Source: Amphiura filiformis
Lineage: Eukaryota; Echinodermata; Ophiuroidea; Amphilepidida; Amphiuridae
DNA: 64,000 nt
Reading direction: 5' to 3'
Assembly (NCBI RefSeq): GCF_039555335.1
Contig: NC_092642.1
Location: forward strand, 17,699,208-17,763,207
The stretch's first letter is position 1. Every line of letters begins with the position of its first letter. A program made the translations under genes and the position numbers. The notes beneath the pieces are model-generated. The model was not told the origin of the DNA, searched no databases, and worked only from the letters and a program-made list of their open reading frames with translations. Positions 13,762-58,253 of the stretch are shown here, piece by piece.

Positions 13762-13764
13762 TTC

Positions 13765-17319: not shown

Positions 17320-17798
17320 ACATCTCAAACAAAGTAACTAACCCCCCTTAGGTAATGGCCATTATTCAAAAAGGGACTATTGTATTACAAATCTGTAAAA
17401 TGCGTTGGAAGCAGAATTCATTTCTGCGAATTTTGACATCTTATTTGATACGATAGCCCAGAAAACAATAAAACACCGGTCAATTTAATGTAGTGAGGTC
17501 CAGATTTGAAAGTTGCACTTACATATAAATTTTTACAATACAAAAACACTCAGATATCATTACACAGATTTCCTTCCATTACACTGAATATAAAATCAAT
17601 GCAACTTTCAAATCTTGGGTTACATTGATATAAATGTACGCTGCGACGTCATTTAGTCAATTGCTGCAAATGAGGTGTGAAAATGTGCAGAAATAAAATT
17701 CTGCTTCCAACGCATTTTACTGATTTGTAATACAATCACCCAGTTTTGAATAATGGTCAATATTTAAGGGGGGTTAGTTACTTTTTTTGAGATGTTTA
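17320..17798. mobile_element. MITE, unit 2 copy
   Basis: Same element as 13284-13761, with the same TAAACATCTCAAA termini. The interspersed hairpin repeat follows at 17806-18090. Confidence 0.8.
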
Positions 17799-18089
17799 GT
17801 TCGTTTTGTGCAATTCCAAGAAAAATAAGTAGATTTTAGTAACGTTTCACCACTACACTAGTAGCTTCATTAGCCTGATGAAATCACTAGTGTAGTGATG
17901 AAATTGCATAAAGAGAACAATGTTAACAGTTGAATCTAACATTACAAATGAAATTGTTGAAAGATAAATGCACATAAATTGTATATTTTAAGCCAGTGTG
18001 TACATAAAGTGTAAGGACTTGTGCAAGGGTATTGTTTTGGAGTTAAGTTTTTTGCCAAATAAAGATGTTATCATCTCTCTGTGTGTCAG

Positions 18090-18912
18090 GTGACGCTGTG
18101 TAGCGCTGCTGTGGTCTTCACAAGAGTGTACGCCAGCTCACTCGATCTAATGGAAAGTGCGTTGCACCTTACAGTCCTTGGCTAGAAACCAGCTTAATGT
18201 CATAGGTCATCTTCGGCCTTCTATAGCCCCTTAAAAATGTGTCTTTCTACACCTCCATCTCTCCTGACAATTATGGCCAAAGTACGTCAGCCTTCTCACC
18301 ATTATGCCGTTTTTGATGATTAGACTTGTACTAATCTTGTAGGAATGTGTTCTCTTGTCTTTTCATGTCACTTAAAGAAGCCTCCTGTAACACCACACCT
18401 CAAAAGCATCAACTCTTATCCTGCCATTCTTGGTCATAGCCCAAGACTCGCATCCGTTAGTAGCAATGGAAAGCACAGTTGCACGAAGTAGGCGTATGAG
18501 GTCAATGAATAGGCCCCGGCTTTTCCATATGCTTGACCTGCATTGCACAGTTGTCCTTGCAATACACAGTCTTCTCTTAATTTCAGTTGTGCTGTCACCG
18601 ATGATGTTAATCATTGAGCCCAGGTATTCAGATTGCTTCAACTCCTCAATCTGCTGTCCATCTATCACAAACTTACCACTTTTCCGCTCTCTGTCTACAG
18701 CCATTATTTATGTCTTCTTTGTGTTCATTAGAAGGCTTGTTTCTTCACTGGCCTCTTTGAGGCGCTTCAAAAGATCAATCATCTCTACTCTGCTGCTACA
18801 AATAAGAGTGGTATCATCGGCGTATCTCAGGTTAGTAATCTTTGTACCGCCAAACTTCATTACACCAAAGCCCTCCAAAGCTGTTCTCATGACTAGAGTA
18901 GACGTCAAATAG
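18090..18912 (-). pseudogene. Non-LTR retrotransposon 3' end, unit 2 copy
   Basis: The translated pieces (18908-18708 and 18704-18372) are identical in amino acids to those at 14869-14333, including YADD and the stop that separates them. The shared disabling stop shows that the copy arose by duplication of an already dead insertion, not by a second retrotransposition. Confidence 0.85.
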
Positions 18913-18955
18913 GTTTGGTTTTATGACTTTTATTAATTTGTTAAAATTTAATATA

Positions 18956-19645
18956 AACCCAGCAAACACAAAACGTTTTCGACATCATTCGCAAAAGGTT
19001 ATAAAAGGTTGTCAGAAAACGTTTAAATATCGGGTTATATAAAGGGTACATTAATGGTATAAAACGTTTTCATAACATTAAATAATATTTGTTGCACAGC
19101 AAACGCACAGCAAACGCAAATGTTTTACAGAAAACATTTAAATGTCGGGGTATAAAAAACGTTTTAATAACATTCCAAAAACATTTTTGAAAACGTGGTA
19201 CAAATCATTCTAAACAGAATGTTATTTTGGGGTTGAAAAAATATTTTGCAAAAAATGTTTGCCCAAAATATTTACAATAACGTTTTTAAAATGTTTTCAC
19301 GACCTTTATATAACCCGACATTTAAATGTTATTAAAACGTTTTGTAAAAAAAACATTTTAAGAACATTTCTGTGTTTGCTGGATACAAATATTTTAACAT
19401 AATGTTATTTAAGAGTTGACAAAATATTTGGCCAAAAATGTTTGCAAAAATAGTTTACAATGACATTTCGAAAACATTTTAAAAATATTGTTGTAGTGTG
19501 TTTTTATATAAAACGTTTTAGAACGATTTCATGACCTTTATATAACCCGACATGTTAATGTTATTAAAACGTTTTTACCTGAACCAAAACCCAAAATATA
19601 ACTTATTTAAAACGTTTTAAAAACGTTTTTGTGTTTGCTGGGAAG
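18956..19645. mobile_element. AAACGTTTT-rich repeat, unit 2 copy
   Basis: Same element as 14917-15598. This copy keeps a few more bases at its right end (TTTTTGTGTTTGCTGGG), which makes the terminal inverted repeat clearer. Confidence 0.8.
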
Positions 19646-19796
19646 GCATTAAACCAATGTATGTTTCTTTCCGGTCCCTGCTGCAGGGGGATGACACTCT
19701 TATTCACATTTTCATTTTACAACGCAAACCTATATCGAATCCCGGTGGTTTGCGAATAATAAAATGTCCGCATCCCAGATCAATTAAACCCTGGTG

Positions 19797-22074
19797 GGTC
19801 AGTCCATATGAAATCAAGGAGGCCCCCACCTGACCCCCTCAGATTTGCTTGATATTTAAGTCATATGTTGTACCTGTAAAAATATTAAAAACCTGCACAT
19901 TTGAGGTCTGTAGCTCTTACGGATTTTCTGTGGCAGCCATTTAAAGTTGGAGTAGGGGGCTCTAAATTTGGACTCAAAAGTTACCCTTTAAATAAATTTA
20001 ATCTTTGGGAGTCTGTGCCTTCTTTACAAAGAGAGGGAGAGGTCTGAAACCTTGTATACACGCTAACTGCATGCCCAATTTGTCAAAAAGTAAAAAAAAA
20101 ATTAAAAAATTATTGCGCTTTGTGTCACGGGGTCATTAAATATGCAAGAAAAAATGTAATGTTTTATAAACTGACAAGTTTAGTTATTTTTTGTTGTCAC
20201 TGATACTAAATATAGGATAAATACAATGCATATCCAAAAAATTGAGCACACAATTCATTTACATTTCGAACAGCGCCCTCACGAAGATGAAATTTATTGC
20301 AAATTCAACATTTTCAGGGGCCCAAAGTCGATGTGGTCCACCTTCAAAATGTATAAAACATCACTTTTATATGACTACTAGTCTTACATTACAACTTAGG
20401 TAAGTCCCAGTAATTGTCTAGGCTGACTTCATATAAAACGACAAGCCCAAAGTTGACCATTTTCTTACGATTGCATGTACTGCAAATGTGCCGAATTTGG
20501 AAGGCTTAAAAGTCAAATTGGCCACAATATTGAAAAAAAATTATTAGATGCGTAGTTATTGGCCCTATTTACTATTATTTCCATTTTATTTTCAATATAC
20601 AGATTTTCTGTGGCAGCCATTTAAAGTTGGAGTAGGGGAATCTAACTTTGGACCCAAAAGTTGCCCTTTGAATAAATTTCATCTTTGGGAGCCTGTACCT
20701 TCCTAATAAAATAAGAGAGGTCTGAAACCTTGTATACACACTAATTGCATGTCCAATTTGTCAAAAAGTAAAAAAATAAAAATAAATTTATTACGCTTTG
20801 CGTCACGGGGTCATTAAATATGCAAGAAAAAATGTAACGTTTTATAAATTGACAAGTTTAGCCCCCTTAAATTCACATTTGTTGTCAAATTAGTTATTTT
20901 TTGTTGTCACTGATGCTAAATATAGGATAAATGCAATGCATATCCAAAAAATTGAGCTCACAATTCATTTACATTTCGAACAGCGCCCTCACGAAGATGA
21001 AATTTATTGCAAATTCAACATTTTCAGGGGGCACAAAGTCGATGTGGTCCACCTTCAAAATTTATAAAACATCACTTTTATATGACTACTAGTCTTAAAT
21101 TACAACTTGGGTAAGTCCCAGTAATTTTATAGGTTGACTTCATATAAAACGACAAGCCCAAAGTTGACCATTTTCTTATGATTGTATGTACTGCAAATGT
21201 GCCGAATTCGGAAGGTTTAAAAGTCAAAATGGCCACAATATTGAAAATAAATGACTAGATGCGTAGTTAATGGCCCTATTTACTTTAATTTCCATTTTAT
21301 TTTCAATATTGGGGCCAATTTGACTTTTAAGCCTTCCAAATTCGGCACATTTGCAGTACATGCAATCATAAGAAAATGGTCAACTTTGGGCTTGTCGTTT
21401 TATATGAAGTCAACTAGACAATTACTGGGACTTACCTAAGTTGAAATTTAAGACTATTAGTCATATAAAAATGATGTTTTATAAATTTTGAAGGTGGACC
21501 ACATCGACTTTGGGCCCCCTGAAAATGTTGAATTTGCAATAAATTTCATCTTCGTGAGGGCGCTGTTCGAAATGTAAATGAATTGTGAGCTCAATTTTTT
21601 GGATATGTATTGTATTTATCCCATATTTAGTATCAGTGACAACAAAAAATAATTAATTTGACAAAAAATGTGAATTTAGGGGGGCTAAACTTGCCAATTT
21701 ACAAAACATTACATTTTTTCTTGCATATTTAATGACCCCGTGACACAACACGCAATTAGAGAAATTTTTTTATTTTTTACTTTTTGACAAATTGGGCATG
21801 CATTTAGTGTGTATACAAGGTTTCAGACCTCTCTCTTTTTTGTAAAGAAGTCACAGACTCCCAAAGATGAAATTTATTTAAAGGGCAACTTTTGAGTCCA
21901 ATTTTAGACCACCCTACTCCAACTTTAAATGGCTGCCACAGAAAATCCGTAAGAGTTACAGACCTCAGATTTGCAGGTTTTAATATTTTAACACGTACAA
22001 CATATGACTAAAATATAAAGCAAATCTGAGGGGGTCAGGTGGGGACCTCCTTGATTTCATATGGACTAACCCTG
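19797..22074. mobile_element. Giant fold-back element, complete copy (about 2.3 kb)
   Basis: The outer left arm begins GGGTCAGTCCATATGAAATC and its complement ends at about 22074. Blocks repeat in mirror order (TGGCAGCCATTTAAAGTTGG, CTCTTACGGATTTTCTGTGG, GTCGATGTGGTCCACC). There is an extra nested partial copy near 20570-20870. The open frames inside are AT-rich accidents. It resembles a large non-autonomous fold-back transposon. Confidence 0.8.
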
Positions 22075-23431: not shown

Positions 23432-23662
23432 TTAAGTGACATACATTTTAATATTAGCATGAAAGTTCATCTGTGTTGGTAGACTTCATAATTGTAAATT
23501 TAAACTTATGATCTCAACACAAAATTAAGACGTACCTCAAATTTTCGGTCACAACTTTGACCTTCATCTGGAGACTGGCAACCCAAGTTTGGGATCAGTG
23601 ACCTTTTGGACACTTGACCCCAAAACCCGGTCGTACACTCTGGGTAACTTGTATCGGCCCCA

Positions 23663-24523
23663 TCTAACCTTTCTAAAGAGGAGAGGGAAGCTTTGCAACA
23701 GCTTCAGAAAGATCAGTCAATCCAAATCTTACCAGCCGATAAGGGAAGATTAGTGGTCATCTTTAATAGTGAGGAATACAATCGCAAGTGTGAGAAACTT
23801 CTTAGTGACACTAATACCTACAAGAACTTAGGCAAAAAGGATCCAACCAGTAAGTACAAGAAACAATTAACATCTGTGCTTCTTGAAATCGAGAAAGAGG
23901 GTGGTATCAACAGAGTTGAGTACAGACAGTTGTACCCCACCACCGAAACTCCACCTAAATTTTACGGGTTGCCTAAAATTCATAAGAAAGACACTCCACT
24001 CAGACCCATTGTGAGTAGCGTCGGGTCAATCACATACAGTAGTGCTAAATTGGTTGCTGACATTTTAGCCCCTCTTGTTGGTAAGACAGAACACCACGTT
24101 GCCAATTCTCAGATTTTCGCAGAGCGAATTAAGAACGAAACTGTAGAGGAGGACGAAGAATTAAGATCTTATGATGTCACTGCTCTTTTTACCTCTGTAC
24201 CCGTTGACAAAGCATTAAGAATTATTCAAGCTCGTCTGGAACAGGATAACACACTTAGTGATCGGACACATGTGACAAAACTTCTCGAAGTGTGTTTGAA
24301 TTGTACTTACTTTGTGTATAATGGAAATTACTATCAGCAAATCCATGGCGCGGCTATGGGGTCACCTGTATCCCCGATCGTCTGTAACTTATATATGGAA
24401 CAATTAGAACAGGAAGCGATAAGATCAGCCCCCCACCCCCCTTTGTGGTGGTTCCGTTATGTCGACGATACCCATACAAAGTTAAAAAAAACCAATACGC
24501 GGAGGAGTTTACGAATCACTTGA
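23663..24523 (+). pseudogene. Penelope reverse transcriptase, first part
   Basis: The frame is already open at the arm boundary (about 23663) and shows PLE hallmarks. Numbered from the Met at 23693: ILPADKG at 13-19, FYGLPKIHK at 90-98, LRPIVSS at 103-109, catalytic SYDVTALFTSVP at 159-170 (D161), HGAAMGSPVSP at 218-228 and FRYVDDT at 254-260 (D258, D259). It would make cDNA primed on broken DNA. The N-terminal 150-200 residues are missing. The frame breaks just after YVDDT, beside a run of eight A at about 24484-24492. Confidence 0.88.
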
Positions 24524-25140
24524 ACTCAATCGATCCGGACATCAAGTTCACGACAGAAGGCGAGGAAAATAGGTCACTCGCATTCCTCGACACTCATACA
24601 GTCATCCAAGAGGACGGTACGCTAAAAATCAAAATCTATAGGAAACCGACCCACACGGATCAATACTTGAACTTTGATTCAAATCATCCTGTCCAGCACA
24701 AACTGGGTGTAATCCAGACTCTTCACCACAGAGCGGGCAGTATCATATCTGAGCAAGAGGACATAGCGGAGGAGAAATCCCACATTAACAGTGCATTAAA
24801 GAAGTGCGGTTATCCGAACTGGTCCTTTGACAAAGCTAAGAAAGCGAAAGAAGGGAAGTCTAAGAACAGTAACCTGAAAAATACAAACGTTGAGACAAAA
24901 GGACAAGTAGTTTTGCCCTACGTTAAAGGAACTTCCGAAGCCTTACGAAGAATCTTCGGCACCTACGGCATCAGAGTTTGTTTTAAACCCACTCAAACTC
25001 TGAGGCAGCTACTTGTCTCACCTAAAGACAAAACTGAGAAGAAAGACATTACCGGACCAATTTATTACATCCCCTGTCAGGGAAAACCCTGCAGGGCCAG
25101 TGTTCAGAATCTTACATTGGTGAGACTGAAAGATCTTTGA
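24486..25140 (+). pseudogene. Penelope RT thumb, linker and start of GIY-YIG domain
   Basis: Continues the Penelope protein in the next frame: a thumb region with FLDTHTVIQEDG and YRKPTHTDQYLNFDS (a typical PLE block), a Lys-rich linker, then the IYYIPC strand that opens the GIY-YIG endonuclease. The frame is lost again near 25080-25140. The preceding Met at 24445 overlaps the earlier frame and is not meaningful. Confidence 0.85.
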
Positions 25141-25490
25141 AAACCAGATTCTCAGAACACCGTCGTCCGAGTACTACCTCGTCGGAAGTCTCCCAGCACA
25201 TCCACATTGAATCCCCCGGCCACCAAGTTGATTTGGATGAGGTCAAAATCCTCGACCGGGATGCTAGATACTTTGAAAGGGGTGTGAAGGAGTCAATTTA
25301 CATCAGAGTCAACCAACCATCTCTCAACCGCGACGGGGCCGATACAAGTTACCCAGAGTGTACGACCGGGTTTTGGGGTCAAGTGTCCAAAAGGTCACTG
25401 ATCCCAAACTTGGGTTGCCAGTCTCCAGATGAAGGTCAAAGTTGTGACCGAAAATTTGAGGTACGTCTTAATTTTGTGTTGAGATCATAA
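25100..25490 (+). pseudogene. Penelope GIY-YIG endonuclease, C-terminal part
   Basis: A third frame carries SYIGETERS (the YIG strand) near 25110, TRFSEHR with the catalytic-type Arg and His, and a VNQPSLNRD block that fits the conserved Asn region. The C-terminal extension (about 25334-25490) lies inside the right terminal arm and includes DEGQSCDRKFE. The nuclease would nick target DNA. Two frame changes make the element non-functional in cis. Confidence 0.82.
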
Positions 25491-25520
25491 GTTTAAATTT
25501 ACAATAACATTTTAATATTA

Positions 25521-26321: not shown

Positions 26322-27458
26322 TCATACTGAAGTCGAACTTGATATCATAACATTTTTATTTCCATTCCGCGATGAATATCTCTTGTTTCCTTTACCAACA
26401 CACTCAAAAGCTTCTGCAAATGCTCTCCTGTATCGCCCGTTACTTACGTTATACATGAGGGGATTTACTGCCGAATTTAACAGCGTCGTAACGCGAGCCA
26501 ACCAGAGGATGAAAGTCTTCGCTTTATCTTCAAACATTCTTTCACCAACCAACCAATACTTGAAACGATTGAGATTGTATATTTCATTTGGCGCCAAACA
26601 TATGAAGAAAACAGTTCCATTCAAAATCAGCATTCTTCCAATTTGATTTCTGGCGCGAATCATTGCCGTCGTTTGCTGTTCAGAGCCGCGTTCTCCAGTG
26701 AGACCTGTCCTTGTACTAAGCGCGTATATAATTCTGCAGTACATGTATGAAGACAAGATTACTGCAAGAGTAAACTGTACAAAGTCAATTGCAGCAAGAG
26801 TTTGCCAACACCAAGAGCAACGGTCTACCTTACATACAATGAATTTTGCCGCCATGTTCTGAAATGTGGTGCTGTTAGACCAATCTATGCATATTGTTTC
26901 AGTTTCATGAAAATGGAGACCCACACACGCTGAAACTAATGAAATCAACCAAGCACATATCGTCATTCGTACAGTCCAGGTCCTGCCTTTGAGCATTCGA
27001 TGCGTTATCGGGTGACATATAGCCAGATATCTTTCAAAGGTGACGAGTGTTATTAAGTACACAGATGCAAAATAACAAAGGTATGTGATAAGCCAGACTA
27101 GAGCACAACCGGCACCAGAATGAAACGCCGAAATGGCAAAGTCAATTGGAGTTGTGAAGTAAAGCCACATGAGCCTAACTGCTACAATAATTAGATACGT
27201 TGCATCGCTGACAGCAAGATTACACAGGTAGAAGTTGGTTACAGTCCGCATTTCTGGCACGCGATATAGAACAAATAGTAGAGCAGCATTTCCAAGAATG
27301 CCCAATCCGGCCACAATGGGTACGATCACTAGGATGAAGATCTTCTTATACATGGTGTAAAAATACTGAGCAGCTTCTACATCTGAAAACAATACGACGC
27401 AATCATCGTCTGAATGCGTAGAATTCATTTTCTCGTGTGCACCCATTTGATAAAACAC
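26322..27458 (-). CDS. Class A peptide-receptor-like GPCR, copy 2
   Basis: 378 residues, seven predicted helices, intronless. Key residues: N57 (1.50), D85 (2.50), C118 and C190 for the extracellular disulfide, E142-R143-Y144, W170, L288 in place of the usual 6.48 Trp, P290, and NPLMY at 332-336. Sequons at N12 and N195. The Met at codon 11 (27428) starts the MNSTHS motif shared by all copies and is the likely start. It is closest to copy 1, sharing the MFxQxG leader and the ISSSTSV tail, but unlike copy 1 it keeps the TM1 Asn. The long C-terminal tail is basic and Ser-rich, as in receptors desensitised by phosphorylation. Ligand unknown; a neuropeptide is the most reasonable guess. Confidence 0.92.
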   Translation of the reverse strand: MFYQMGAHEKMNSTHSDDDCVVLFSDVEAAQYFYTMYKKIFILVIVPIVAGLGILGNAALLFVLYRVPEMRTVTNFYLCNLAVSDATYLIIVAVRLMWLYFTTPIDFAISAFHSGAGCALVWLITYLCYFASVYLITLVTFERYLAICHPITHRMLKGRTWTVRMTICAWLISLVSACVGLHFHETETICIDWSNSTTFQNMAAKFIVCKVDRCSWCWQTLAAIDFVQFTLAVILSSYMYCRIIYALSTRTGLTGERGSEQQTTAMIRARNQIGRMLILNGTVFFICLAPNEIYNLNRFKYWLVGERMFEDKAKTFILWLARVTTLLNSAVNPLMYNVSNGRYRRAFAEAFECVGKGNKRYSSRNGNKNVMISSSTSV

Positions 27459-28832: not shown

Positions 28833-29937
28833 ATAGGAGTGACGAGGTTATCATAAAAATGATATTTAAAAGAAGTAAAAACTTCATAACAAATTTTATC
28901 AACCAAGGCTACAAGAGTGTGGTGGGCGCAGCATTAAAGCTTAATAAAAATATCTTGTTACTAGTAATAGCTTAGTCAGGAGTATGACAATTAGATGGTT
29001 TACAAATGTATTCTATTGTCACCCTGGATTGTCACCTAATGTGAGAAACGAAATAACTAAAAAGAAACTTGTAGAGGATGTAGTAGACGATGGATAATGG
29101 AAGTCTGAATGCCGTGTTTGATGACTGTATAGTATTTCACGAATATGGATGAACGCAAATGAGGAAAACTAATTGTTGCAGCCTCCTTTAATTTCGATAT
29201 TAAACGTCATATACCGTTATAATGGGAACTTTTCGATTGCGGGCGGTAGTTTTTTGTTATCACAAGGGGGATGGTTAGACTTAATGTTGATCTACACTGG
29301 CGGAATGTTTGGTTTGCGGTATGGTTTGTGGCTTCCTGTTGTGATAAAGGTGAATATTAGATTATATACAGATTCAAAATAAATATTTACATACTTAGGT
29401 TTAGCTAAACGTTAAATTGTGTTCTTGCCCATGTCATCACACAAAACTCTCAAAATAGAGGGGCTTTTTAAATGAATGTGGAAACATTATACATTGAACA
29501 AAAGATACATTTGACAAAAGACAAATTGGTAATATTTTTCATGACTCTGAGAATGCAAATAAATAACGTCAATTGACGTTTGATTCCCCCAGCCCCTCTT
29601 TCTCTCACTATCACTTTAGTTTTATAAGAGGGCCTCATGACAACAGCAATATGAGAGACCATTGTACCTCAACCTAATACCTTAAGTGTCTTAATGACTT
29701 ATAGAAAGTGACATTTTACCTGCTTGTATCTTTGCTTAATGATATAATGCATCAATTCTCTTGACTTGGAGATCAACCCATTTAAACAAGGTGTTACTCG
29801 ATTTATGCAGGAGTCGCAAACAATTTGTACGCACGTTGGCCATAATCCTCTTTTGCTAGGTCCGGACAAAAACATCGGTTCTACCTTCTGTAAGCATTGT
29901 CACGAATTTGAAGGTTACGATTTTAAGGTTTAGAGCT
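28833..29937. other. Duplicated receptor flank, no gene seen
   Basis: 29560-29745 resembles 41040-41220, including TCACTATC...TTTTATAA, CCTCATGACAAC and CCTTAAGTGTCTTAATGACTT words. This places it in the block duplicated with the receptors. The small open frames have no recognisable motif. Confidence 0.45.
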
Positions 29938-36454: not shown

Positions 36455-37591
36455 TTATATGTTAATGTTTTGACTGCAGGCTATAGTTACCTGTGACCTA
36501 GACATCACAATATTTTCATCTGCATTCCGCGAGGAAGATCTCTTTTTTCTTTTACCATCACAGCCAAAAGCTTCAATAAATGCTCTCCTGTATCGTTCGT
36601 TGCTCACGTTATACAAGAGCGGGTTTACTGCCGCATTTAACAGCCACATAACGCGACTAAACCAAAGGATTATCGCCATCGTCTTAGCTTCAAACATTTT
36701 CTCACCAACCAACCGATGCTTGAAGTAATCGAGATTGTACATTTGAAGTGGTGCCAGACATATGAAGAAAACCGTTCCATTCAAAATCAGCATTCTTCCA
36801 ATTTGATTCCTGACGCGAAGCATTATTGTCGTTTGCTTTTCAGAGCCTTGGTCTCCAGAGATACCTGTTCTTGTACTAAGGGCGTAAATAATTCTGATGT
36901 ACATGCATGAAGACAAGATCACTGTAAGAGTAAAATATGCAAAGTCAGTTGCATAAAGAGTTGGCCAACACCACGAGCAATTTGTGACTGCCTTGCAGAC
37001 AATGAACTTTGCCGCCATATTATGAAATGTGGTGTTGTAAGACCAATCTATGCATATCGTTTCAGTTTCATGAGCATGGAGACCAACACAAGCCGGAACC
37101 AACGAGATCAGCCAAGCACTTATCGTCATTCGTAGAGTCCAGGTCCTGCCTTTGAGCATTCGATGAGCCAGCGGGTGACATATAGCCAGATATCTTTCAA
37201 AGGTTACGAGTGTTATTAAAAACATGGATGTAAAATAACAAAGGTACGTGATAAGCCAGACTAAAGCACAACCGGCTCCAGAGTGAAACGCCGATAAAGC
37301 AATTTCAATTGGAGTATTGAAATAAGTCGATATGAGCCTTATTATATTTAAAATTAGCAACGTTGCATCGCTAACAGCAAGATTACATAGGTAGAAGTTG
37401 GTAACAGTCCGCATTTCTGGCACGCGATATACAACAAACAATAGCGCAGCATTTCCAAGTATGCCCAGACCTGCCACAATGGGTACGATGACTAAAATGA
37501 AGATCTTCTTATATATAGTGTAAAAGTGTGGAACAGCTTCCTCTTCTGAAAGCAATAAGTCACAATCATCGTTTGAATGAGTAGAATTCAT
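36455..37591 (-). CDS. Class A peptide-receptor-like GPCR, copy 3
   Basis: 378 residues from the conserved MNSTHS start; an in-frame TAA nine bases upstream excludes the longer start of copies 1 and 2. N47 (1.50), D75 (2.50), C108 with C180, E132-R133-Y134, W160, P281 and NPLLY (323-327) are present, while the 6.48 Trp is Leu279 and TM5 lacks Pro. Sequons at N2 and N186. The C-terminal tail (about 329-378) ends in SQVTIACSQNINI, differing from the ISSSTSV end of copies 1 and 2, so two tail types exist. The same tail occurs in relic 3 at 41300. Probable peptide receptor in the plasma membrane; ligand unknown. Confidence 0.92.
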   Translation of the reverse strand: MNSTHSNDDCDLLLSEEEAVPHFYTIYKKIFILVIVPIVAGLGILGNAALLFVVYRVPEMRTVTNFYLCNLAVSDATLLILNIIRLISTYFNTPIEIALSAFHSGAGCALVWLITYLCYFTSMFLITLVTFERYLAICHPLAHRMLKGRTWTLRMTISAWLISLVPACVGLHAHETETICIDWSYNTTFHNMAAKFIVCKAVTNCSWCWPTLYATDFAYFTLTVILSSCMYIRIIYALSTRTGISGDQGSEKQTTIMLRVRNQIGRMLILNGTVFFICLAPLQMYNLDYFKHRLVGEKMFEAKTMAIILWFSRVMWLLNAAVNPLLYNVSNERYRRAFIEAFGCDGKRKKRSSSRNADENIVMSRSQVTIACSQNINI

Positions 37592-39500: not shown

Positions 39501-41149
39501 TTTTGGGAGATTTGCTTGTAGTTTTCGTAATCATAGATTTTGCTGGGAACTACTTTAGTCCAGTCCCATCAGCTTTACGGGTGATCAGCCCTGTTTCAGC
39601 TTATTTCTGACACACAGCAGCCGAGATCTACCAATATGCAGTAGTTCGCCCCTGATCTGGAACATGTTGGCCAGTGTTGGAAGGTTGACCAATGATGACA
39701 TGTTCAACACTGGCCTAATGACCGTTGGGAAGTAAATCTTCCTCTTCCGCTCTATGGCCCGTGATGAAAATTTACGGAGTCATTGAGATAGGCTACTCCA
39801 ATATGAAGAGAATCACTACCGTCCTTGACTCCTTAGAATACTCAAGAAAATGAAGATAGAGCTTGATGTTCATTGCAAGAGACCTTGGAACTAAACTATC
39901 CCTACCAGAAAAAAAGCACCCGATCTTACCGCACTGCTCTCCAGCAGTTTAAGGACAAAGTCCGGTCGGAACATAACTCACAAGTGTTCTTGAAAAACAT
40001 GGTATTAAACCTAACGAGTAACTAAGAGAAAAAACGGAGCAATATTTCATCACAATTGTGTTGCTGGCTGTACTGTAGCAAAAACAAATGGCCAAGACAT
40101 TTGAACATACTGGCCGTTGAACCTGGCATATACAAACATGGTGGAAAAAATGCAATAGGACAACTAATTTGATATTTACGTGAGATCTAAGTTGAAATTT
40201 CCTTTTGTTGAAAGTTTCTATAAATGCTATCCTCAACAGTCACGGTTTATGAAAAATATTAAGTGAAACGCAACTACCGTTAATTTTTATGAGTCTTTTT
40301 ACTTCGCTACCCAATTAAATTGTGTTTTGAATGAGAGCAAACACTACGCAATAAAGACACCAGATTTGAAGCTGCCTTTAACTTAAATCAAGGTTGATTT
40401 TTGCCTTCTTTCAAGTGCTTTTTTCGGTTCAAACAAACTTTTTAAAATTGCTTAAGTCTTCATACTTAACCCGACCCAACTCCAGTTTTCCTATTTGAAA
40501 TATGTACAACTTTATCTGGAAATTTTGATCGCTCTATTTCAATTTGCATATATTTCCTTTCAACATTTGAAAAAACTCGCCCACAAATGTGTATGTAGAG
40601 TGAACAGCTTTAAAGTAAATGTAAATTACAAGAAATAATAACACGACCAGGGGCAAATAACACTTTGGGCGCTTTATTCTACTTCCGTGCCAATGAGTTT
40701 AAAATGGCAACTGTTCATAATCTACCTTAGAGAGTGCTGACATTCAAAATTTAGAAGTGTCGTGGACAAACATTAAAATTGGGCGTTGCTGTAAAATATA
40801 TCATAAAAACAGAACTGTAAATGCTAATTACTTCATTTCTAAAATAAAGACGGCTTCTTTGCCCTATTTTACTTTCTTTTACTCACCCTGTACAAATGCA
40901 TGTGATAAGGTAATTATAAATAAATAAATCGTATGCCCCTGAAAACCTTGATTGAAAAATGTTCAATTTTACCATTCTCCCTCTTCATCCATCCTATATT
41001 TATTACTTATACAATAAGGGTCATTGTACTATTTGTACAAATGACGTTTGATACTCTCCCTCTTTCTCTCACTATGCTTTCGTTTTATAATTTAATGGTA
41101 TCAGATGTCCTCATGACAACGGCAATATAGGAGACATTTATATTAAAAA
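39501..41149. other. No gene seen; right half is duplicated receptor flank
   Basis: 39501-40465 holds nothing recognisable. 40470-41002 resembles 51475-52032 (CCCAACTCCAGTTTTCCTAT, CGCCCACAAATGTGTATGT and TAAATAAATAAATCGTATGC), with the uninterrupted site CTATATTTATTACTTATAC at about 40994-41012, homologous to the target of the 52033-56274 element. 41040-41149 resembles 29570-29660. Confidence 0.55.
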
Positions 41150-41283
41150 CTAATACCTTAAGTATCATAATGACTTATAAAAAGTGATAATAAAATTAAT
41201 ACCTTAAGTGTCTTAATGACTTGTATGCAGAAAGTGATAGTAAAAACTAATATCTTAAGTGTCTTAATGACTTAAAGAAATAA
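41150..41283. repeat. Three-copy tandem repeat
   Basis: Three units of about 50-60 bases contain CCTTAAGTGTCTTAATGACTT (the first unit has ATCATAATGACTT). A single copy lies at 29677-29710, so the array expanded after the receptor-flank duplication. Confidence 0.75.
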
Positions 41284-44499: not shown

Positions 44500-45385
44500 T
44501 AAAGGTGATTTTGTTTCGCTACATGTTACCTATATATTACATTGACGTGGAATTTTCAGTTTCATTCGGCGAAGAAGATCTCTCTTTTCCGAACACACCC
44601 AAAAGCTTCAGCAAATGCTCTCCTGTATCTTTTGTTAATTGCGTTATACATGAGTGGATTTACTGCCGAATTCAACAGCGTCGCAACGCGAGCCAACCAG
44701 AGGATGACTATCTGCGCTTCAGCTCCAAACAGACTTTCACCATCCAGCCAATACTTAAAATGATAGAGATTGTATAGTTCATTTGGAGCGAGACATATGA
44801 AGAAAACAGTTCCATTCAAAATCAGCATTCGTCCTATTTGATTTCTGGCGCGAAGCATTGCTGCCGTTTGCTTTTCAGAGCCGCGTTCTCCAGTGAGACC
44901 GGTCCTTGTACTAAAGCGCGTAAATAATTCTACCGTACATGTATAAAGAAAAGACAACTGCAAGACAAAACTGTGCAAAGTCTACTGCAACAAGAGTTTA
45001 CCAACACCACGAGCATTTGTGTCTACCTTGCAGACAACGAATTTTGCCGCCATATTATGAAAGGTGGCATTGTTAGACCAATCTATGCATATCGTTTCCG
45101 TTTCATGAACATGGAGACTCACCAATGGTGAGTCACCATGCTCACACAAGCCAAAGCCAAAGAACTCAATCAAGCCATTATCGTCATTCGTACAGTCCAG
45201 GTTCTGCCTTTGAGCATTCGATGCGTTAACGGGTGACATATAGCCAGATATCTTTCAAAGGTGACGAGTGCTATTAAAAACACTGATGTAAAACAAGAAA
45301 GGAACGTGATAAGCCAGACTAAAGCACAAACGGCACCAGAGTGAAACGACGATAAAGCAAATTCAATTGGAGTGTTGAAATGTAC
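44500..45385 (-). pseudogene. GPCR relic 5 (TM2/3 to tail)
   Basis: The frame at 44978-44562 encodes STRTGLTGERGSE, IGRMLILNGTVFFICLAPNE and LLNSAVNPLMYN, close to copies 1 and 2. The frame at 45239-44982 gives the ECL2 region with TETICIDWSNNATFHNMAAKF. TM3 is present as DNA up to about 45380. Frame changes lie near 44975, 45140 (a small GACTCACC/GGTGAGTC hairpin insertion) and 45235. The gene stops at a TTAA-bounded MITE half at 45386, so TM1 and the N-terminus are lost. Confidence 0.85.
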
Positions 45386-45389
45386 TTAA

Positions 45390-45690
45390 GGGAAGGGGTA
45401 TGAACGTTTGGACAGTATTTATTGTGGGACATTAGAGCGCATCAGACATATCGAATTGCATTCTGAATACGAAGAATGTCCTTCTGATATCAAATAATTT
45501 AGCTTTTTTGAAATTCGCAATGTAATACACATTTTATGGCAACTCATTAAAAATTGATATTTTTGATATTTAACAGTACTTGAAGTAAACTTAAAGTGTA
45601 TGTAGGTGGGATGGAAGCCGACGATCAATTGAAATTTTTGACCTTTCGTATTGAAGATATGGATATATTCTCATTGAACAGGCAAAAAAA
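45390..45690. mobile_element. Half of a TTAA MITE
   Basis: Begins at TTAA (45386-45389) with GGGAAGGGGTATGAACG and shares long blocks with 56415-56750 and with the inverse of 57690-57894 (ACATATCGAATTGCATTCTG, AAAGTGTATGTAGGTGGGAT). The second arm is missing; the sequence breaks off before a poly-A run at 45686. Confidence 0.75.
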
Positions 45691-47533: not shown

Positions 47534-48565
47534 TTACCAACACACCCACAAAGCTTCAGCAAATGCTCTCCTGTATCGTTTGTTGCTTACATTATACAAG
47601 AGCGGATTTACTGCCGAATTTAACAACCACATAGCGCGACTAAACCAAAGGATTAATGTCTTCATTTTAGCTTCATACATTCTTTCACCAACCAACCAAT
47701 ACTTGAAGTAATCGAGATTGTATATTTGATCTGGTACCAGACATATGAAGAAAACCGTTCCATTCAAAATCAGCATTCTTCCAATTTCATTTCTGGCGCG
47801 AAGTATTGCCGTCGTTTGATTTTCAGAGCCAGTGAGACCCGTCCTTGTACTAAGGGTGTAAATAATTCTGCAGTACATGTATGTAGAAAAGATCACTGCA
47901 AGAAAAAACTGCGCAAAGTCAATAGCAACAAGAGTTGGCTTACACCACAAGCAATTATTGTCTACCTTGCAGACAATGAATTTTGCCGCCATATTATGAA
48001 ATGTAGTGTTGCTAGACCAATCTATGCATATCGTTTCGGTTTCATAAACATGGAGACCCGCACAAGCTGAAATCAACGAAATCAACCATATACTTATTGT
48101 CATCCGTACAGTCCAGGTCCTGCCTTTGAGCATTCGATGCGATAACGGGTGGCTTATTGCCAGATATCTTTCAAAGGTGACGAGTGTTATTAAAAACACA
48201 GATGTAAAATAACAAAGGTACGTGATAAGCCAGACTAAAGCACAACCGGCACCAGAGTGAAACGACGAAAAAGCAAATTCAATCGGAGTACTGAAATAAG
48301 TCCACATGAACCTTATCATAGTTGTAATTAGCAAAGTTGCATCGCTAACAGCAAGATTACATAGGTAGAAGTTGGTAACAGTCCGCATTTCTTGCACGCG
48401 ATATACAACAAACAAAAGCGCTCCATTTCCAAGTATGCCCAATCCTGCCACAATGGGTATGATGATTAAGATGAAGATCTTCTTATAGATAGTGTAAAAG
48501 TATGGAACAGCTTCATCTTCTGAAAGCAATAAGTCACAATCATGGTCTGAATGAGTAGAATTCAT
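47534..48565 (-). CDS. Class A peptide-receptor-like GPCR, copy 4, tail frameshifted
   Basis: 343 residues from MNSTHS; an in-frame TAA lies upstream, so this start is firm. All seven helices are present with N47, D75, C108 and C180, E132-R133-Y134, W160, P278 and NPLLY at 320-324; the 6.48 position is Leu276. The AICHP motif has become AISHP. After RAFAEA (about 47555) the frame departs from its paralogues, because CCCACAAAGC replaces the CCCAAAAGC-type sequence, and ends in WVCW. About 35 residues of basic tail are therefore lost, including likely phosphorylation and palmitoylation sites. It may be a functional tailless receptor or a young pseudogene. The 5' flank is nearly identical to that of copy 3, its closest relative. 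Confidence 0.85.
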   Translation of the reverse strand: MNSTHSDHDCDLLLSEDEAVPYFYTIYKKIFILIIIPIVAGLGILGNGALLFVVYRVQEMRTVTNFYLCNLAVSDATLLITTMIRFMWTYFSTPIEFAFSSFHSGAGCALVWLITYLCYFTSVFLITLVTFERYLAISHPLSHRMLKGRTWTVRMTISIWLISLISACAGLHVYETETICIDWSSNTTFHNMAAKFIVCKVDNNCLWCKPTLVAIDFAQFFLAVIFSTYMYCRIIYTLSTRTGLTGSENQTTAILRARNEIGRMLILNGTVFFICLVPDQIYNLDYFKYWLVGERMYEAKMKTLILWFSRAMWLLNSAVNPLLYNVSNKRYRRAFAEALWVCW

Positions 48566-50705: not shown

Positions 50706-51039
50706 TCCCACTTCATTCTTACACGTGTAAGATGCAACCTTACACATGTTACATGTAAAAGATGCAATATTACGCGTATAAGATGCAACCTTACACGTGT
50801 TACCTACACGTTTTAAGACCACTTGGCCATTCATACGGGCGTGGGCGTGGACGTATTTGTTCCAGCGATTTTAATCTGGAGAACAGATGGATTTCGCAGC
50901 ACTCCAATGGCTTCTGGAGGTCCTCATTATATCAAGTATGATAATTTTTGACGAAAAATTCAAGTGAAATATTAATTAGAAAGTACGACAGTTGCGGGTC
51001 AAAGACTGTGGAATCATTGGGTTTATTAATTGTCTCTTT

Positions 51040-51330
51040 TCTTTGCTTTTTAACGGGCCCGTTGCTCTCTTTTGTTTGCTTTTTTTTTGCTGTAAAAGAG
51101 TGAAGAAAAAACGACCTAATGGAATCGTAAAGTCAACGAAAAGAGACCGTAGTGGGCTCGTAAAAAGCAAATAAAAGATACAATGGGCCCGTAAAGAGAA
51201 AAAACATCCCTTATTGTGGACCCGTAAAAAGCAAACAAAGAGACATTAGTTGGCCCGCAGAGCACAGAAAATATGCCATCATAATTTCAAGATATCGTTT
51301 TACGGGCCCCTTGCATTCTTTGCATTTATG
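51040..51330. repeat. Degenerate GGCCCGTAAA repeats
   Basis: Five or six loose copies of a unit of about 50 bases contain GGCCCGTAAAAAGCAAA and AAAGAGA words on both strands. They lie in the right part of the hAT-like element. 50831-51039 shows nothing else. Confidence 0.6.
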
Positions 51331-51440
51331 GGCTAATTAAGGTATGTTTTCTTTATTTTTACGACCCCCTAGATTAGAACTCCAGGCCCGGGGGTAATGC
51401 ACCCCCTTAACACCACCTTGTTGGTGGCACTGTTGACATA

Positions 51441-52032
51441 CGACGGCGATATTTTAACTAACTCGATCTACTTCACCCGACCCCAACTCCAGTTTTCCTA
51501 TTCGCAATATTTACATCTTACTGTACGCATTATCTTTCGATATTTGAAAAACCCGCCCACAAATGTGTATGTTTCTATTACAGAGAATGAAGAGCCTTCA
51601 AGTAAAGTAAGTATGAAAATAACAAGAAATAATAACAAGCTCAAGTGCCAACGAGGTTAAAAATTTCAACCAACTGTTCCTAATCTACCTTAGATAGAGT
51701 GTGCTTACATTCAAAATTTAGATGTCTCGTGGACAAACATTGTTGCTGTAAAATATATCATAAAAACAGAACGGTAAATGCTAATTACTTTATTTTTTTC
51801 ACACAAGGCCTTTAATGAATATATCATTTACATAACGTTTAAAAACCTAAAAAGGTCAACTTGGTTCTAAAAACAAGATGGATTTTTTACCTTATTGGAC
51901 TTTTTTACTCGCCATGTAGAAATGCATGTAATAACGTAATAATAAATAAATAAATCGTATGCCCCTCAATCCGCGCAGAACCTTGTTTGAAAAATGCATT
52001 AACATTCTCGCTCTTCATCCATCTCATATTTA
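51441..52032. other. Continuation of receptor 4's 5' flank
   Basis: Resumes the homology to the receptor 3 flank (GGCGATATTTTAACTAACTCGATCTA) and from 51475 matches 40470-41002. It ends in the 8-bp target CATATTTA of the next element. Confidence 0.65.
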
Positions 52033-52704
52033 GGAGTACCTTTAGAATACCCTACCACATCGACGGCGCCGCGAAGCTGCACCTTTTTTTGTAAAACTAC
52101 ACCGACGTCGGCACAAATTACTTATTAATGGGATAGATTTAAATTAAGTTAGAGGTTTATGAGTCAGGTTTTTAATAAAGTATGTCGGCGTTTGACTTAA
52201 TGAAGTTTGCAATCATCAAGGTAATAAGTGTTAGTACGATTAAATTATTGTGGTTACTTCTAGATAGTAATAATGTCATTTGAATTGAATTTAAGCATAA
52301 TGAAATAACTATATTGCATTATATAATGGCTTAGAAGTATTAATTATGCGTAATAGATTTTAATGTACTCAAGTAATGATGACCGCATCAAAAGATGATG
52401 TTAATAAGCATGATATAATTATAATTAGTGTGACGTATAAGGGGACGAATTGTAATTGGTTATGAATGATTATATAATTATAATTATTATGATGGATTAG
52501 AGGGCGATGGTAGTTAATTAATAATTATGACATAATAATAATGAGTGTGAGGGATAAGAGGGTTGTTGTAAGTAAATAGTGATTAAAGTTATATTGATAG
52601 GAGGAATGTTAATTGTTAATGAGTGGTTTGATTAAGAATGAGTAGCATTAATTTCATGGAGTAAATACGTTAAGTATCATATATTGAATAATGATGTGAT
52701 GGTG

Positions 52705-53815
52705 AATGAAGGTATCGTTGTTGCTGTGCTACAGCGACGCCGCAAAGGTATCGCTGTTGCCGTGCTACACCGACGGCGCGAAGCTAGACCATTTATGAGG
52801 GGCCTACACCGACGGCGGTAAGGTAGACCTATTTCCGTAAGGCTACACCGACGGTGCAAAGGTGCATCTTAAGTAGGCCTAATTGTTAAAGTTGTCATAT
52901 TAGCAACTGAGTGTGGTGGAGGAAGGTATCGTTGTTGCCGTGCTACAGCGACGGCGCAAAGCTAGACCTTTTTACAGGACTACACCGACGGCGCGAAGGT
53001 ATCGCCGTTGCCGTGCTACAGCGACGGCGCGAAGCTATACCTTTTCAATGGGCTACACCGACGGCGCGAAGGTGTCGTTGTTGCCGTGCTACAGCGACGG
53101 CGCAAAGCTAGACTTTTCGAGGGGCTAAATCGAGGGCGCGAAGGTATACCTATTTCCGTATGCTAACACCGACGGCACTGAGATATACCTTATTTGGTCA
53201 TGTCACCAAATGAATGTAGGGGAGGTAGGTATCGCTGTTGCCGTGCTACAGCGACGGCGCGAAGCTATACCTTTTTACTGGGCTACACCGACGGCGGGAA
53301 GGTATCGCTGTTGCCGTGCTACAGCGACGGCGCGAAGCTGTATCTTTTTACTGGGCTACACCGACAGCGCGAAGGTGTCGTTGTTGCCATGCTACAGCGA
53401 CGGCGCGAAGCTAGACATTTTTGAGGGGCCAAACCGACGGCGCGAAAGTATACCTATATTTCCGTATGGTAACACCAACGGCACTGAGGTATACCTTATT
53501 TGGTCATGTCACCAAATTAATGTAGGGAGGAAGGTATCGCTGTTGCCGTGCTACGGCGACGGCGCGAAGCTATACCTTTTACTGGGCTACACCGACGGCG
53601 CGAAGGTATCGCTGTTGCCGTGCTACAACGACGGCGCGAAGCTATACCTTTTTACTGGGCTACACCGACGGCGCAAAGCTATCGTTGTTGCTGTGCTACA
53701 GCGACGGCGCAAAACTAGACTTTATGCGCATTTTGTAATGACTTGATCAAATAAATGTAATGAAGGGGAGGAAGGTATCGCTGTTGCCGTGCTACAGCGA
53801 CGCCGCTAACCTATA
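52705..53815. repeat. CpG-rich tandem array, about 12 units
   Basis: A unit of about 72-78 bases has two halves: GGTATCGCTGTTGCCGTGC followed by TACAGCGACGGCGCGAAGC, and a spacer with ACTGGGCTACACCGACGGCG. Units start near 52712, 52747, 52922, 52997, 53069, 53224, 53299, 53371, 53530, 53602, 53676 and 53774. A higher-order repeat (TGGTCATGTCACCAAAT) occurs near 53194 and 53502. Open frames here, including one of 178 codons, simply read the repeat. Surrounding sequence (52120-52700) is very AT-rich. Confidence 0.9.
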
Positions 53816-54139
53816 CCTTGCCATTGGGTGATTTTTTTATTTTTTTATTATTTGATTATTTAAAGAATAAAAATAAATGATCAGCTTGGTTTTAGGATTA
53901 AGCAACACATGTTTATTTACGCTTCGCCCGCCCAGGCCTGACTTAAAAGCCGTTAAAAAACTATTCCCTATTATTATATGCACGTATTGAATCATATATT
54001 TGCATATTGATACAAGTGATCGTTGGATTGTAGATGATTATGCTTGGGCGATATACATATGATGCACATGTGAAATGGGGAGTTGCTTGTTTGTTGACAA
54101 GAGGAAATATTAAGTTAAGTTGTCATTGGTAAGCGCATA

Positions 54140-54300
54140 ATGCACATAACTTAGTTTGCACCTGCTTGTGACTGGTTGGGGCATTTTATGAACGACGTAT
54201 ACACTGGTTTATGTGATTTCATAATTTCCAGATATTATAAATAAAAACAGGACCGTGACCACTGAAAAGTTAATTAAAAAGAAACAGAACTTTTGCACCT
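54140..54300. repeat. Direct repeat flanking the nested MULE-like element
   Basis: TTTTATGAACGACGTA, ACACTGGTTTATGTGATTTC and ACCACTGAAAAGTTAATTAA occur at 54190-54280 and again at 55138-55240, with a shorter third copy at 55408-55430. The first two copies bracket the 54310-55116 insertion. 53816-54139 shows no gene. Confidence 0.75.
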
Positions 54301-54309
54301 GGTTATCAC

Positions 54310-55116
54310 TAGACTATGCCATAGTCGAATTTTATTAAAAATATGTTATTATTAGTCATGAACCCATTTCGTTGAACTCAAAATTATATTGATGTTTATT
54401 AAAATTAAAGTATTCAATAGTAAAATGGTCATAAAGAGTTAAAAATATCAGACGATTAGTGACAATAAAAGTAATTGAATGCAACATTATCTTGCATAAA
54501 AATTGTTATAACGGCTCACTTTAATACTGAACAATTCTGATTTTGGAATCTACCAGTTTATTGATAGCGAACCCCGAAATTTCGACTATGAACTTTGAAT
54601 TGTAAGCAGAACTTTACCCCTGGACTTTGCTCTCTAAAAACACACTGTCAAGCATACTTGTTTATCAGTCCATTAACCACAAGTACTAAGCATGGACGCG
54701 CTAGATGTTTGATGAGAGATTAACTTTCGCGTCAACACAAAAGCGCCGCAAATACCACAGACAGTTGTTTACGGTGTAGTTAATGGTAATAGCGCGGGCC
54801 CAGACGATTTAAACCATAGCGAGGTATGGGCGACCAATCACAAGGCAGATCCATTTAAAGATGCATTACATCATGGCCAATTTTAGTTAGGCCAGAAATT
54901 GGCCTAACTCTCCATAGAGTCCGTGTTAAAAATCTTAACCGCAAGGCAATGTCAGTAGTCCACTTGGGAAGCTAACAAACAGAGGGAGTAGGGTGACTGA
55001 TCAGATGTGAAAATCTATCAATTGTGCACACATTTATATAATTAAATCAAGAGTTTTAAGCTTAAATACAATATCCAGAGTATGCACAATGGGCAAGTGG
55101 ACTACGGGGTAGTCTA
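54310..55116 (+). mobile_element. Non-autonomous MULE-like element, copy B
   Basis: Same family and orientation as 9698-10389: starts TAGACTATGCCATAGTCG, ends GGACTACGGGGTAGTCTA, and is flanked by a perfect 9-bp duplication GGTTATCAC (54301-54309 and 55117-55125). It is about 115 bases longer than copy A. Nested in the 4.2 kb transposon. Confidence 0.88.
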
Positions 55117-55539
55117 GGTTATCACTGGTTGGGGCCTTTTATGAACGACGTACACACTGGTTTATGTGATTTCATACGTTGTAGTTGTTTAGTTGTTATA
55201 AATAAAAACAGACCACTGAAAAGTTAATTAAGAAGAAAATGGTCATACAGTCCCGACTAGTTAGGTGAAAAAATAAGCATCATAAGACAATTTTTTACAA
55301 GTTCAACAAAACATTGTGAATGAAACAGAACTGTTATCTTCCATCTTTATTCAGATTTGTATTGAACGTAAGAACGCGGTCAATGTAAAGTAAAGCTTGT
55401 GAGTGGTAGGGGCGTTTTATGAACGACGTATAATCATGATAATTTTTATCATTTAGGCCTGTACTTAGCAAGGTCGTTTAAAAAGAAGAAATTTGGTACA
55501 AAAATCATGGAAATCGATAGTAGGGTTGTTGAGAAATTG

Positions 55540-55845
55540 TCGTTCACGGCGATGTCGCTGTAGCCTGCAACAACGATAACCTTCCTCATAGGCATCGCAT
55601 TAATGGGTGAATATTTATAAAGTTTTGTTTGTTTGTTTGTCAATTAATTCATTAATTATCAAACGGCGATGTCGCTGTAGCCTGCAACAACGATAACCTT
55701 CCTCATAGGCATCGCATTAATGGGTGAATATTTATCAAGTTTGTTTGTTTGTTTGTTAATTAATTCATTAATTATCAAACGGCGATGTCGCTGTAGCCCT
55801 GCAACAACGGTAACCTTCCTCGTGTGCATCATAATTTACATATTA
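55540..55845. repeat. Inverted subterminal array, three units
   Basis: Three units of about 115 bases with GGCGATGTCGCTGTAGCC, CAACAACGATAACCTTCCTC and a TTTGTTTGTTTG spacer. Each is an inverse relative of the left array's core (GAGGAAGGTATCGTTGTTG...GCTACAGCGAC), so the element's two sides carry the same binding-site-like word in opposite orientation. Confidence 0.85.
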
Positions 55846-56282
55846 TACGGTAATTAATGACTGAGTATTGTTAAAAGTTAATGTTTTTATTTAATGTTCT
55901 TAAGTTAATTAATAATTCCTTTAAATAAGATAATTAATGAATGGAAACCGATCATTATGCAGATTTATGATTCCTGGCTGATTATGGGAAGCAAAGCAAT
56001 AATTATGAACATTAATTAAATTTAAAATTTACTAATGTTCCTCTTCTTCATTATATAGTGGCACTATTAATTAAATTACTACAATGTTGTTTTGAATCTC
56101 TCTCGTTCGTTTATTTAATTTGCTAAATTAAGTGATTTATATATTGCACTGAGTTAATCCATACATCATTCAATGTAATCCTATCATCGAGTTTCGCGCC
56201 GTCGGTGTAGCAGGGCTAAAACTAGGGTAGCTTCGGCGACGGTCAAATGTGGTAGGGTATAGTAAAGTTTAGCCCATATTTA

Positions 56283-56410
56283 TTATTTATATGATAAAAG
56301 TCATTTTACTTACTCTGATGACGATAATGGTTTATTATAAAAATTTTAAGGGCTCACTAATGGACAAAATTCAAAGCACATGCGTTTATATATTTTTGGT
56401 GATATTTCAA
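56283..56410. other. Receptor flank resumes briefly
   Basis: TTATTATTTATATGATAAAAGTCATT matches 41003-41030 beside receptor 3, then homology fades. Confidence 0.45.
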
Positions 56411-56414
56411 TTAA

Positions 56415-57894
56415 GGGATCTGGAATTAGGGTTTTGAGCGTTTCGACAGTATTTTTTGTGGGACATGAGAGCCAATCAGACATATCGAATTGTATTCTGA
56501 ATACGAAGAATGCCATTCTGATATCAAATAATTTTCATTTTGTGAAATTCACGATAAAAAATAATACAAATTTCATGACAAATTATAAAAATTTAATATT
56601 TTTCACATTTTTGATATATAAAAGTCCTCGAAGTAAATTTTATAAATCTAATGATATATTCTTAAAGTGTATGTAGGTGGGAGGAAAAGCCGACGATCAA
56701 TTGAAAATTTTGACCTTTCATATTGAAGATATGGATTTTCCCCCCAAAAGACCTAATTTTTTTGGGTGTTTTGGGGACAAAATCCATATCTTCAATACGA
56801 AAAGTCAACATTTTCAATTGATCGTCGGCTTTTCATCCCACCTACATACACTTTAAGTACATATCGTTGTGAATTCGGCAGAGTGACGAATCGAGCATTT
56901 TGAGTAAATTGAGTTTTTGTATGCTTATGATTATGTTTCAGGTTGTCTTTTATTTCCTCCACAAATTAATGGTAAATCTTACTCTTCGATGTCGTTATTG
57001 AAATTTTGATTTGGACGAATCGCGCCTAATTGCGATAAATGAATTCGGCAGAGAGACGAATCGTATACTTAGCTGTACAAATCAGGTTGATCTATAGTAT
57101 TGTATAGCGGAAAACCCCGAATTTTCTATATTACATGTCCTATACTGATATATTTGATACCAACGTATAGCTGTAGGTATCTTCTATCCAGTGATACCAA
57201 AATAAGTACAAACATTCCCCACATGATATTGCTGTGGTTTAATAATGTGAGTGCGCCCCCGTGAAATTGGAAAATCCTGGAAAATCATACGCAAAATATA
57301 GGTCAATATTGTTATTTCTGCTTTAAAATCCTCGAGTTTTTGCTAAATATTACAGGGATGACTATTTATAACTTTTATAGCAAGTTAAGCGTATTCGACC
57401 TCTCTCAGCGCAGTGGTAGAAACATTTTGGCTACAGCATAAAGCCGAATAGCTGTTAAAACGCGTTTTGAGGGATATATCGATTGTTTCAGAACATGCAA
57501 GTATTGTAAATAATTCGTGTACACTCACTTCTATAATATAGGCCTACATTTCATATGAGTGCTCACGAATGTTCTACATTTTTAGAAGGATCAATGGAAT
57601 AGTACCAATATTTTCAAACGCCGTTTACTCAGAACAGCTATTTTGCGTATTCGGCACTCTGCCGTGTTCATAACGATATTATCAGATTTATAAAGTTTAC
57701 TTCGAGTACTGTTAAATATCAAAAATATAAATTTTAATCATTTGCCATAAAAAGTGTATTACATTACGAATTTCAAAAAATCAAAATTATTTGATATCAG
57801 AAGGACATTCTTCGTATTCAGAATGCAATTCGATATGTCTGATGTGCTCTAAAGTCCCATAATAAATACTGTCCAAAGGTTCATACCCCACCCC
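56415..57894. mobile_element. TTAA-flanked fold-back MITE with nested insertion
   Basis: TTAA flanks both ends (56411-56414, 57895-57898). The arms share ACAGTATTT, GACATATCGAATTG and AAAATTTTGACCTTTC-type blocks in opposite orientation, with a mirror centre near 56760 (CCATATCTTCAAT and its complement). The right arm is split by a second element at 56861-57679. Confidence 0.8.
56861..57679. mobile_element. Nested element with ATATCGTT ends
   Basis: Ends ATATCGTTGTGAA and ATATCGTTATGAA (right end read on the minus strand) are inverted repeats continuing through CGGCAGAGTG. The GAATTCGGCAGAG word recurs internally near 57041. It interrupts the arm of the surrounding TTAA MITE. No coding potential. 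Confidence 0.75.
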
Positions 57895-57898
57895 TTAA

Positions 57899-58253
57899 GC
57901 GACATGCCATTTAAAAAAGTCAACGACTAGCGAATATGTTTTATATTTCCCCCGTTAAAGTTTGCGCAGGGAACTTAATATATTATAGGGAATTGCCTCT
58001 CACGCATGATCGCACACAGTGAATGCCCCCCTCATACTCCATGGCAAGCGGCAACAGGCAAGACGTATTAACCAATGACAAGCTTCGATTGTGTCCGTTT
58101 GTCTGCAATGCGCGTGCGTCACGCCGCTCAGCGACAAAAGTATGACACAAGCATTTGGTCGGACCTCATCTCTAACATGATAACTGACATAGGTCAATAT
58201 CCTTCCCGACATGCTTAGTAGCCAAGTCCGTAGAAGATTATTATTCTTGTGAT
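57899..58253. other. No gene seen
   Basis: A GGTCGGACCTCATCTC word at 58167 recurs at 58511, so this stretch may be a diverged tandem relative of the repeat that follows. Confidence 0.4.

Follow-up and report, generated by a model that had tools for sequence, protein, structure and literature searches.

Mutator-like elements (MULEs) generate target-site duplications of 8-11 bp (PMC6446971), and several described elements combine duplications of about this size with repetitive ends. In Muta1 and its relatives, Mutator-like elements of Aedes aegypti that belong to the type-2 foldback group, the duplications are 8-9 bp, the terminal inverted repeats (TIRs) consist of a terminal motif and subterminal tandem repeats, and non-autonomous derivatives carry unrelated interiors (PMC5225508). 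Tm1 of root-knot nematodes, one of whose groups contains a Phantom-type Mutator transposase, has partly asymmetric outer motifs followed by a common core and then by tandem repeats in unequal number per end; most of its copies are non-coding, and nested insertions are reported (PMC3169594). Tetris, a non-coding foldback element of Drosophila virilis whose ends contain tandem repeats and whose complete copies are flanked by 8-9 bp duplications, is non-autonomous and was placed in Mutator by its authors according to duplication size (PMC4079207). Merlin elements have TIRs of 24-462 bp, a conserved terminal GG, and duplications of 8 or 9 bp (PMC8101967). The foldback structure has evolved in elements with more than one kind of transposase, Galileo being a P-type case (PMC3573991, PMC3169594), and one rule for grouping copies into a family is equal duplication length together with first 11 bases that are alike with at most one mismatch (PMC4455052).

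The insertion described here was found in a 64,000-nucleotide stretch of Amphiura filiformis DNA (contig NC_092642.1, positions 17,699,208 to 17,763,207, forward strand), which is referred to as the window. It occupies positions 52033-56274 (4242 bp) and is bounded by two exact copies of CATATTTA, located at 52025-52032 on the left and at 56275-56282 on the right and read as an 8-bp target-site duplication. The left end reads GGAGTACCTTTAGAATACCCTACCACAT and the right end, on the opposite strand, GGCTAAACTTTACTATACCCTACCACAT; the termini are GG...CC, i.e., GG at both ends. The TIRs were delimited at 52033-52060 (28 bp, + strand) and 56247-56274 (- strand). When compared in register, 22 of the 28 outer bases agree, comprising 8/14 in the outer half and 14/14 in the inner half, and with gaps allowed the similarity extends to approximately 80 bp.

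An end-pair scan, in which an exact 8-bp repeat had to flank ends that agree at 22 or more of 28 bases and have a common 10-base word, was applied to positions 51001-57300. Only the pair described above was returned, and none of 300 dinucleotide shuffles of the same segment gave such an end pair. The exact 8-bp duplication at these edges and the short, imperfect TIR, both of which had been put forward in the original prediction, were thereby confirmed. When the whole window was scanned, other places were also returned, nearly all of them within long inverted repeats, and the scan alone is therefore not a detector. A 9-bp duplication (TCATATTTA/CCATATTTA) was considered and rejected; it contains one mismatch, and 8 bp was preferred because the longer reading shifts the ends one base out of register. 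No further copy of the core of the ends was present in the window at up to one mismatch.

A paralogous flank at 40837-41034 (+ strand) contains the corresponding empty site, where a single copy, TATATTTA, is located at 40995-41002 and differs from CATATTTA at one base. The left flank of the element matches 40837-41002 at 78.9%, and the match stops at the last base of the duplication. After removal of the element and one copy of CATATTTA, the joined flanks matched 40837-41030 at 78.8%, and their alignment to 40837-41034 was gap-free at the join, in agreement with the paralogous empty site claimed previously. Of the 30 bases that follow the right-hand CATATTTA, 22 agree with the sequence starting at 41003, which was the top result after the self match among 127,940 ungapped placements (the runner-up had 20/30). 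The right-flank match is short and ends near 41030; the sequence just past its end, 41038-41187, recurs at 29570-29711. The data favor an insertion at this site over a deletion in the paralogue, and it is close to certain that 52033-56274 is a transposon insertion with these borders.

The interior of the element contains an AT-rich tandem array with a period of 58 (52401-52562), a left subterminal array on the + strand (52709-53723) composed of units of about 36/73 bp with a higher-order period of 303 over 52904-53723, a further single unit of this array near 53771-53819, and a right array with a period of 117 (55546-55821, - strand) that carries the left-array motif in the opposite orientation. 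The merged tandem-repeat rows (52401-52562, 52709-52863, 52904-53723, and 55546-55821) account for 1413 of the 4242 bases, or approximately one third. The left-array unit is up to 75% identical to the left subterminal DNA of the element over 56 columns, with an E value of 2.8e-5 computed against the two short subterminal stretches only, and the best copies in the left array contain the motif adjacent to the right end in 19 of 19 bases. The orientation of the repeats was followed using the motif GCTACA[CGA]CGAC with no more than one mismatch, for which 27 of the 28 matches in the window are inside the element; 21 of the 23 matches in the left part are on the + strand and 2 on the - strand, and all 4 in the right part are on the - strand. 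A longer form of the motif gave 11 matches on the + strand and 1 on the - strand in the left part and 3 in the right part, all on the - strand. The 19-base motif, with up to 4 mismatches, was matched 23 times in the window, always within the element (22 times on the + strand at the left and once on the - strand at the right).

The motif is directed toward the interior at each end, an arrangement seen in foldback-type transposons and in elements with composite ends. Judged by these similarities, the left array resembles an amplified version of subterminal DNA from the element itself, and on that reading the ends would be composite and of the foldback type. The inward-pointing subterminal repeats may serve as transposase-binding sites. 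The array units were also folded as candidate hairpins, and two stretches from the left array and one unit from the right array folded no better than shuffled sequences (31, 47, and 59 of 200 shuffles, respectively, folded at least as well).

A second transposon is nested within the first at 54310-55116 (807 bp, + strand). Its ends are TAGACTATGCC...AGTCTA, and it is flanked by two copies of a 9-bp duplication, GGTTATCAC, at 54301-54309 and 55117-55125. A sister copy of 692 bp, flanked by ACCAATACT, is present on the + strand at 9698-10389 in a receptor pseudogene. Alignment of 54310-55006 with 9698-10338 gave 70% identity over 721 columns, and both copies share the left border TAGACTATGCCATAGTC and the right border AGTCTA. 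The two belong to a family of small, non-coding transposons with TAGACT ends and 9-bp duplications. The number of bases directly matching at the two sides is 10 in one copy and 11 in the other, because neighboring bases chance to match the ends of the family, and a 9-bp duplication was accepted since 9 bp is common to both. The sister copy splits the receptor pseudogene and is absent from all seven receptor paralogues that were aligned across the site. Within the large element, the nested copy separates two related repeat units, 54171-54284 (+ strand) and 55124-55238, which are 80.3% identical. The large insert is thus composite, a point absent from the original prediction, and the nested element is unrelated to its host and was inserted later.

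A search of the large element for end pairs flanked by direct repeats (inserts of 150-1500 bp) produced five candidates, of which the 807-bp element was ranked at the top. Three of the remaining candidates were discarded as shifted or larger frames round the 807-bp insert, and one in the left array was discarded because the array period itself yields direct repeats. The nested element and one copy of its duplication make up 816 bases (19% of 4242), so that the host element was about 3.43 kb long (approximately 3426 bp once these bases are subtracted) before the nested insertion. With arrays occupying about a third of the insertion and these 816 bases belonging to another transposon, the earlier description of the interior as mostly repeat arrays was overstated. 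The left end of the nested family can be folded into a short hairpin, which was equaled by 0/200 and 1/200 shuffles in the two copies; a hairpin at the right end is less clear (5/200 and 40/200). Muta1 has likewise been reported to carry a palindromic motif at its terminus (PMC5225508), and our guess is that the nested family is Mutator-like as well.

Coding capacity was assessed from the 23 stop-free stretches of at least 45 amino acids in the large element, the longest of which (205 amino acids) is a translation of the array. A Pfam scan of 10 of these 23 stretches, with E values up to 1, gave no match; the previous statement that the element contains no transposase holds for these 10. Nothing was detected in the whole window using Rfam at the gathering threshold, and no tRNA was predicted by ARAGORN when run with the bacterial code. 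A collection of viral contigs contained no exact match to patterns taken from either array, the left end, or the nested element, and a genome contig collection contained none to one left-array pattern; both are collections without animal genomes as such, and these negatives carry little weight. A shorter, 19-base pattern matched at least 120 stretches; the 80 listed were named as bacterial with one match each, and they were taken as chance matches. Literature searches covered duplication size, subterminal repeats, foldback, Mutator, and Merlin elements, and sea-urchin and lancelet transposons, with a search on lancelet transposons yielding no paper. Judging by title and the start of the abstract, a description of these ends was not found among the matches listed, in a literature that is not searchable by sequence.

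The large element resembles Muta1, Tm1, and Tetris in the anatomy described for them at the outset, and it differs from each in detail. Its repeat units of about 36/73 bp are longer than the 9-15 bp units of Muta1, and its two arrays are very unequal (PMC5225508). The duplications of Tm1 are most commonly 9 bp, and the terminal motifs and repeat unit of that family differ from those of the large element in sequence and length (PMC3169594). Tetris has TIRs of up to 1,735 bp and repeats of about 220 bp, whereas the TIR proper of the large element is short (PMC4079207). The 8-bp duplication falls within the range for MULEs, and inverted subterminal tandem repeats are present in composite ends as in foldback elements, although the arrays are strongly unequal and such repeats do not occur in every MULE.

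There is good support for reading the large element as a non-autonomous cut-and-paste transposon. We assign a rough probability of 0.5 to the full reading, in which a non-autonomous cut-and-paste transposon of the Mutator/foldback type was moved in trans and was later hit by a nested element. Placement in the Mutator/foldback type is suggested by the anatomy and is, taken separately, an even call. In such a scheme, the ends and subterminal motifs would be bound by a transposase encoded at another genomic locus, which would cut the element out and ligate it into a staggered break; repair of that break would give the 8-bp duplication, and the unrelated 0.8-kb element, which makes 9-bp duplications, would have been inserted subsequently. 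Movement in trans is presumed, and the transposase supplied would most likely be Mutator-like (Phantom-type).

Several observations weigh against this placement. The symmetry expected of a foldback element is weak, as the arrays extend much further on the left and two motif matches in the left part are on the - strand, and in the outer 14 bases the two ends agree at only 8. The GG ends and the 8-bp duplication fit Merlin equally well, and a non-autonomous Merlin (IS1016-like) element in which arrays formed by secondary amplification of subterminal DNA would also explain the 28-bp TIR, which is within the length range reported for that superfamily (PMC8101967). We nevertheless consider a Merlin origin unlikely, since the outermost bases match poorly beyond the GG (the 8/14 includes it), no transposase was found in the stretches scanned, and large subterminal arrays of the kind reported for Mutator/foldback elements are not mentioned in the excerpted account of Merlin (PMC8101967). 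It is very improbable that the segment is something other than a transposon, either a satellite or array that grew in situ or a segment lost from the paralogue. The tandem arrays that form about a third of it and the single copy of these ends in the window are compatible with that explanation, but such growth does not leave a direct duplication immediately flanking inverted ends when the paralogue carries the site once, and loss from the paralogue would have had to include exactly one copy of the duplication.

Another superfamily with 8-bp duplications (P-type, for example a Galileo-like foldback element, hAT, Zisupton/KDZ, or Novosib), or an undescribed one, is possible but doubtful. The ends of hAT elements follow a CA/TA-type consensus and those of the P superfamily are of the CA type. 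The GG...CC ends of the large element depart from both, while its duplication has the 8-bp size of hAT. Duplications of 8 bp are made by Zisupton and, as a rule, by hAT (PMC12730594), and Galileo, a member of the P superfamily, has long and internally repetitive TIRs but duplications of 7 bp, as opposed to the 8 bp observed here (PMC3573991). Nothing specific favors P-type, hAT, Zisupton/KDZ, or Novosib elements. More specifically, it is improbable that these are the ends of an undescribed transposase group that makes 8-bp duplications and recognizes inverted GCTACASCGACGGCG, with amplification by the element of the DNA to which its transposase binds and with the copy in the window as a non-coding derivative.

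Because the anatomy fits more than one superfamily, the large element was filed in none; we infer that it behaves as a non-autonomous element of the foldback type, with Mutator as a first guess. The label "unclassified" given in the original prediction stands, but the element is not exotic, as its anatomy is that of a non-autonomous Mutator/foldback element, or of Merlin by duplication size and terminal GG. Its proposal as the best candidate for an undescribed element was weakened, because the anatomy is a known one and the 4.2 kb comprise a host element and a nested element. The element may reasonably be regarded as a new family within a kind already known.

The locus provides one well-bounded insertion, with its empty site, of an animal transposon not assigned to a superfamily, and a second family that is ordered in time by nesting and backed by empty sites in all of the aligned paralogues. 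The end sets of the large element and of the nested family can be used as probes for autonomous partners. The case further suggests an origin of internal tandem arrays in the subterminal DNA of the transposon that carries them, which would be a connection between mobile elements and satellite DNA like the one argued for Tetris (PMC4079207).

The window also contains an array of rhodopsin-type receptor genes on the - strand between 8.9 and 48.6 kb. Three receptor genes were scanned and match 7tm_1, and the best solved relatives of one of them are the neuromedin-U and opioid receptors. Open reading frames (ORFs) that look full-length are located at 11428-12567, 26322-27458, 36455-37591, and 47534-48565, and partial copies near 9-10.6, 34-35.3, 41.3-41.8, and 44.5-45.4 kb, all on the - strand. 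A palindromic repeat at 10635-11061, with arms that are 82% identical, lies no more than 50 bases from the piece of receptor pseudogene at 10389-10593. Positions 13144-16139 and 17180-20183 form a 3-kb direct duplication with 98.9% identity whose copies are about 4 kb apart, and two long palindromes of one repeat family, possibly foldback-like, are present at 16204-16999 (arms 85%) and 20598-21951 (arms 90%). Inverted arms of 174 bp at 23491-23664 and 25332-25505 (99.4% identity) enclose a reverse-transcriptase ORF that matches Pfam RVT_1; this element (23491-25505) is presumably Penelope-like. An ORF of 1270 amino acids on the minus strand at 557-4369 was judged by eye to resemble a Gypsy-type polyprotein. 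To the right of the large element, positions 56428-56868 and 57676-57899 are related to 45385-45664, with repeat copies in both direct and inverted orientation, and 56650-56868 in this repeat family is a palindrome.
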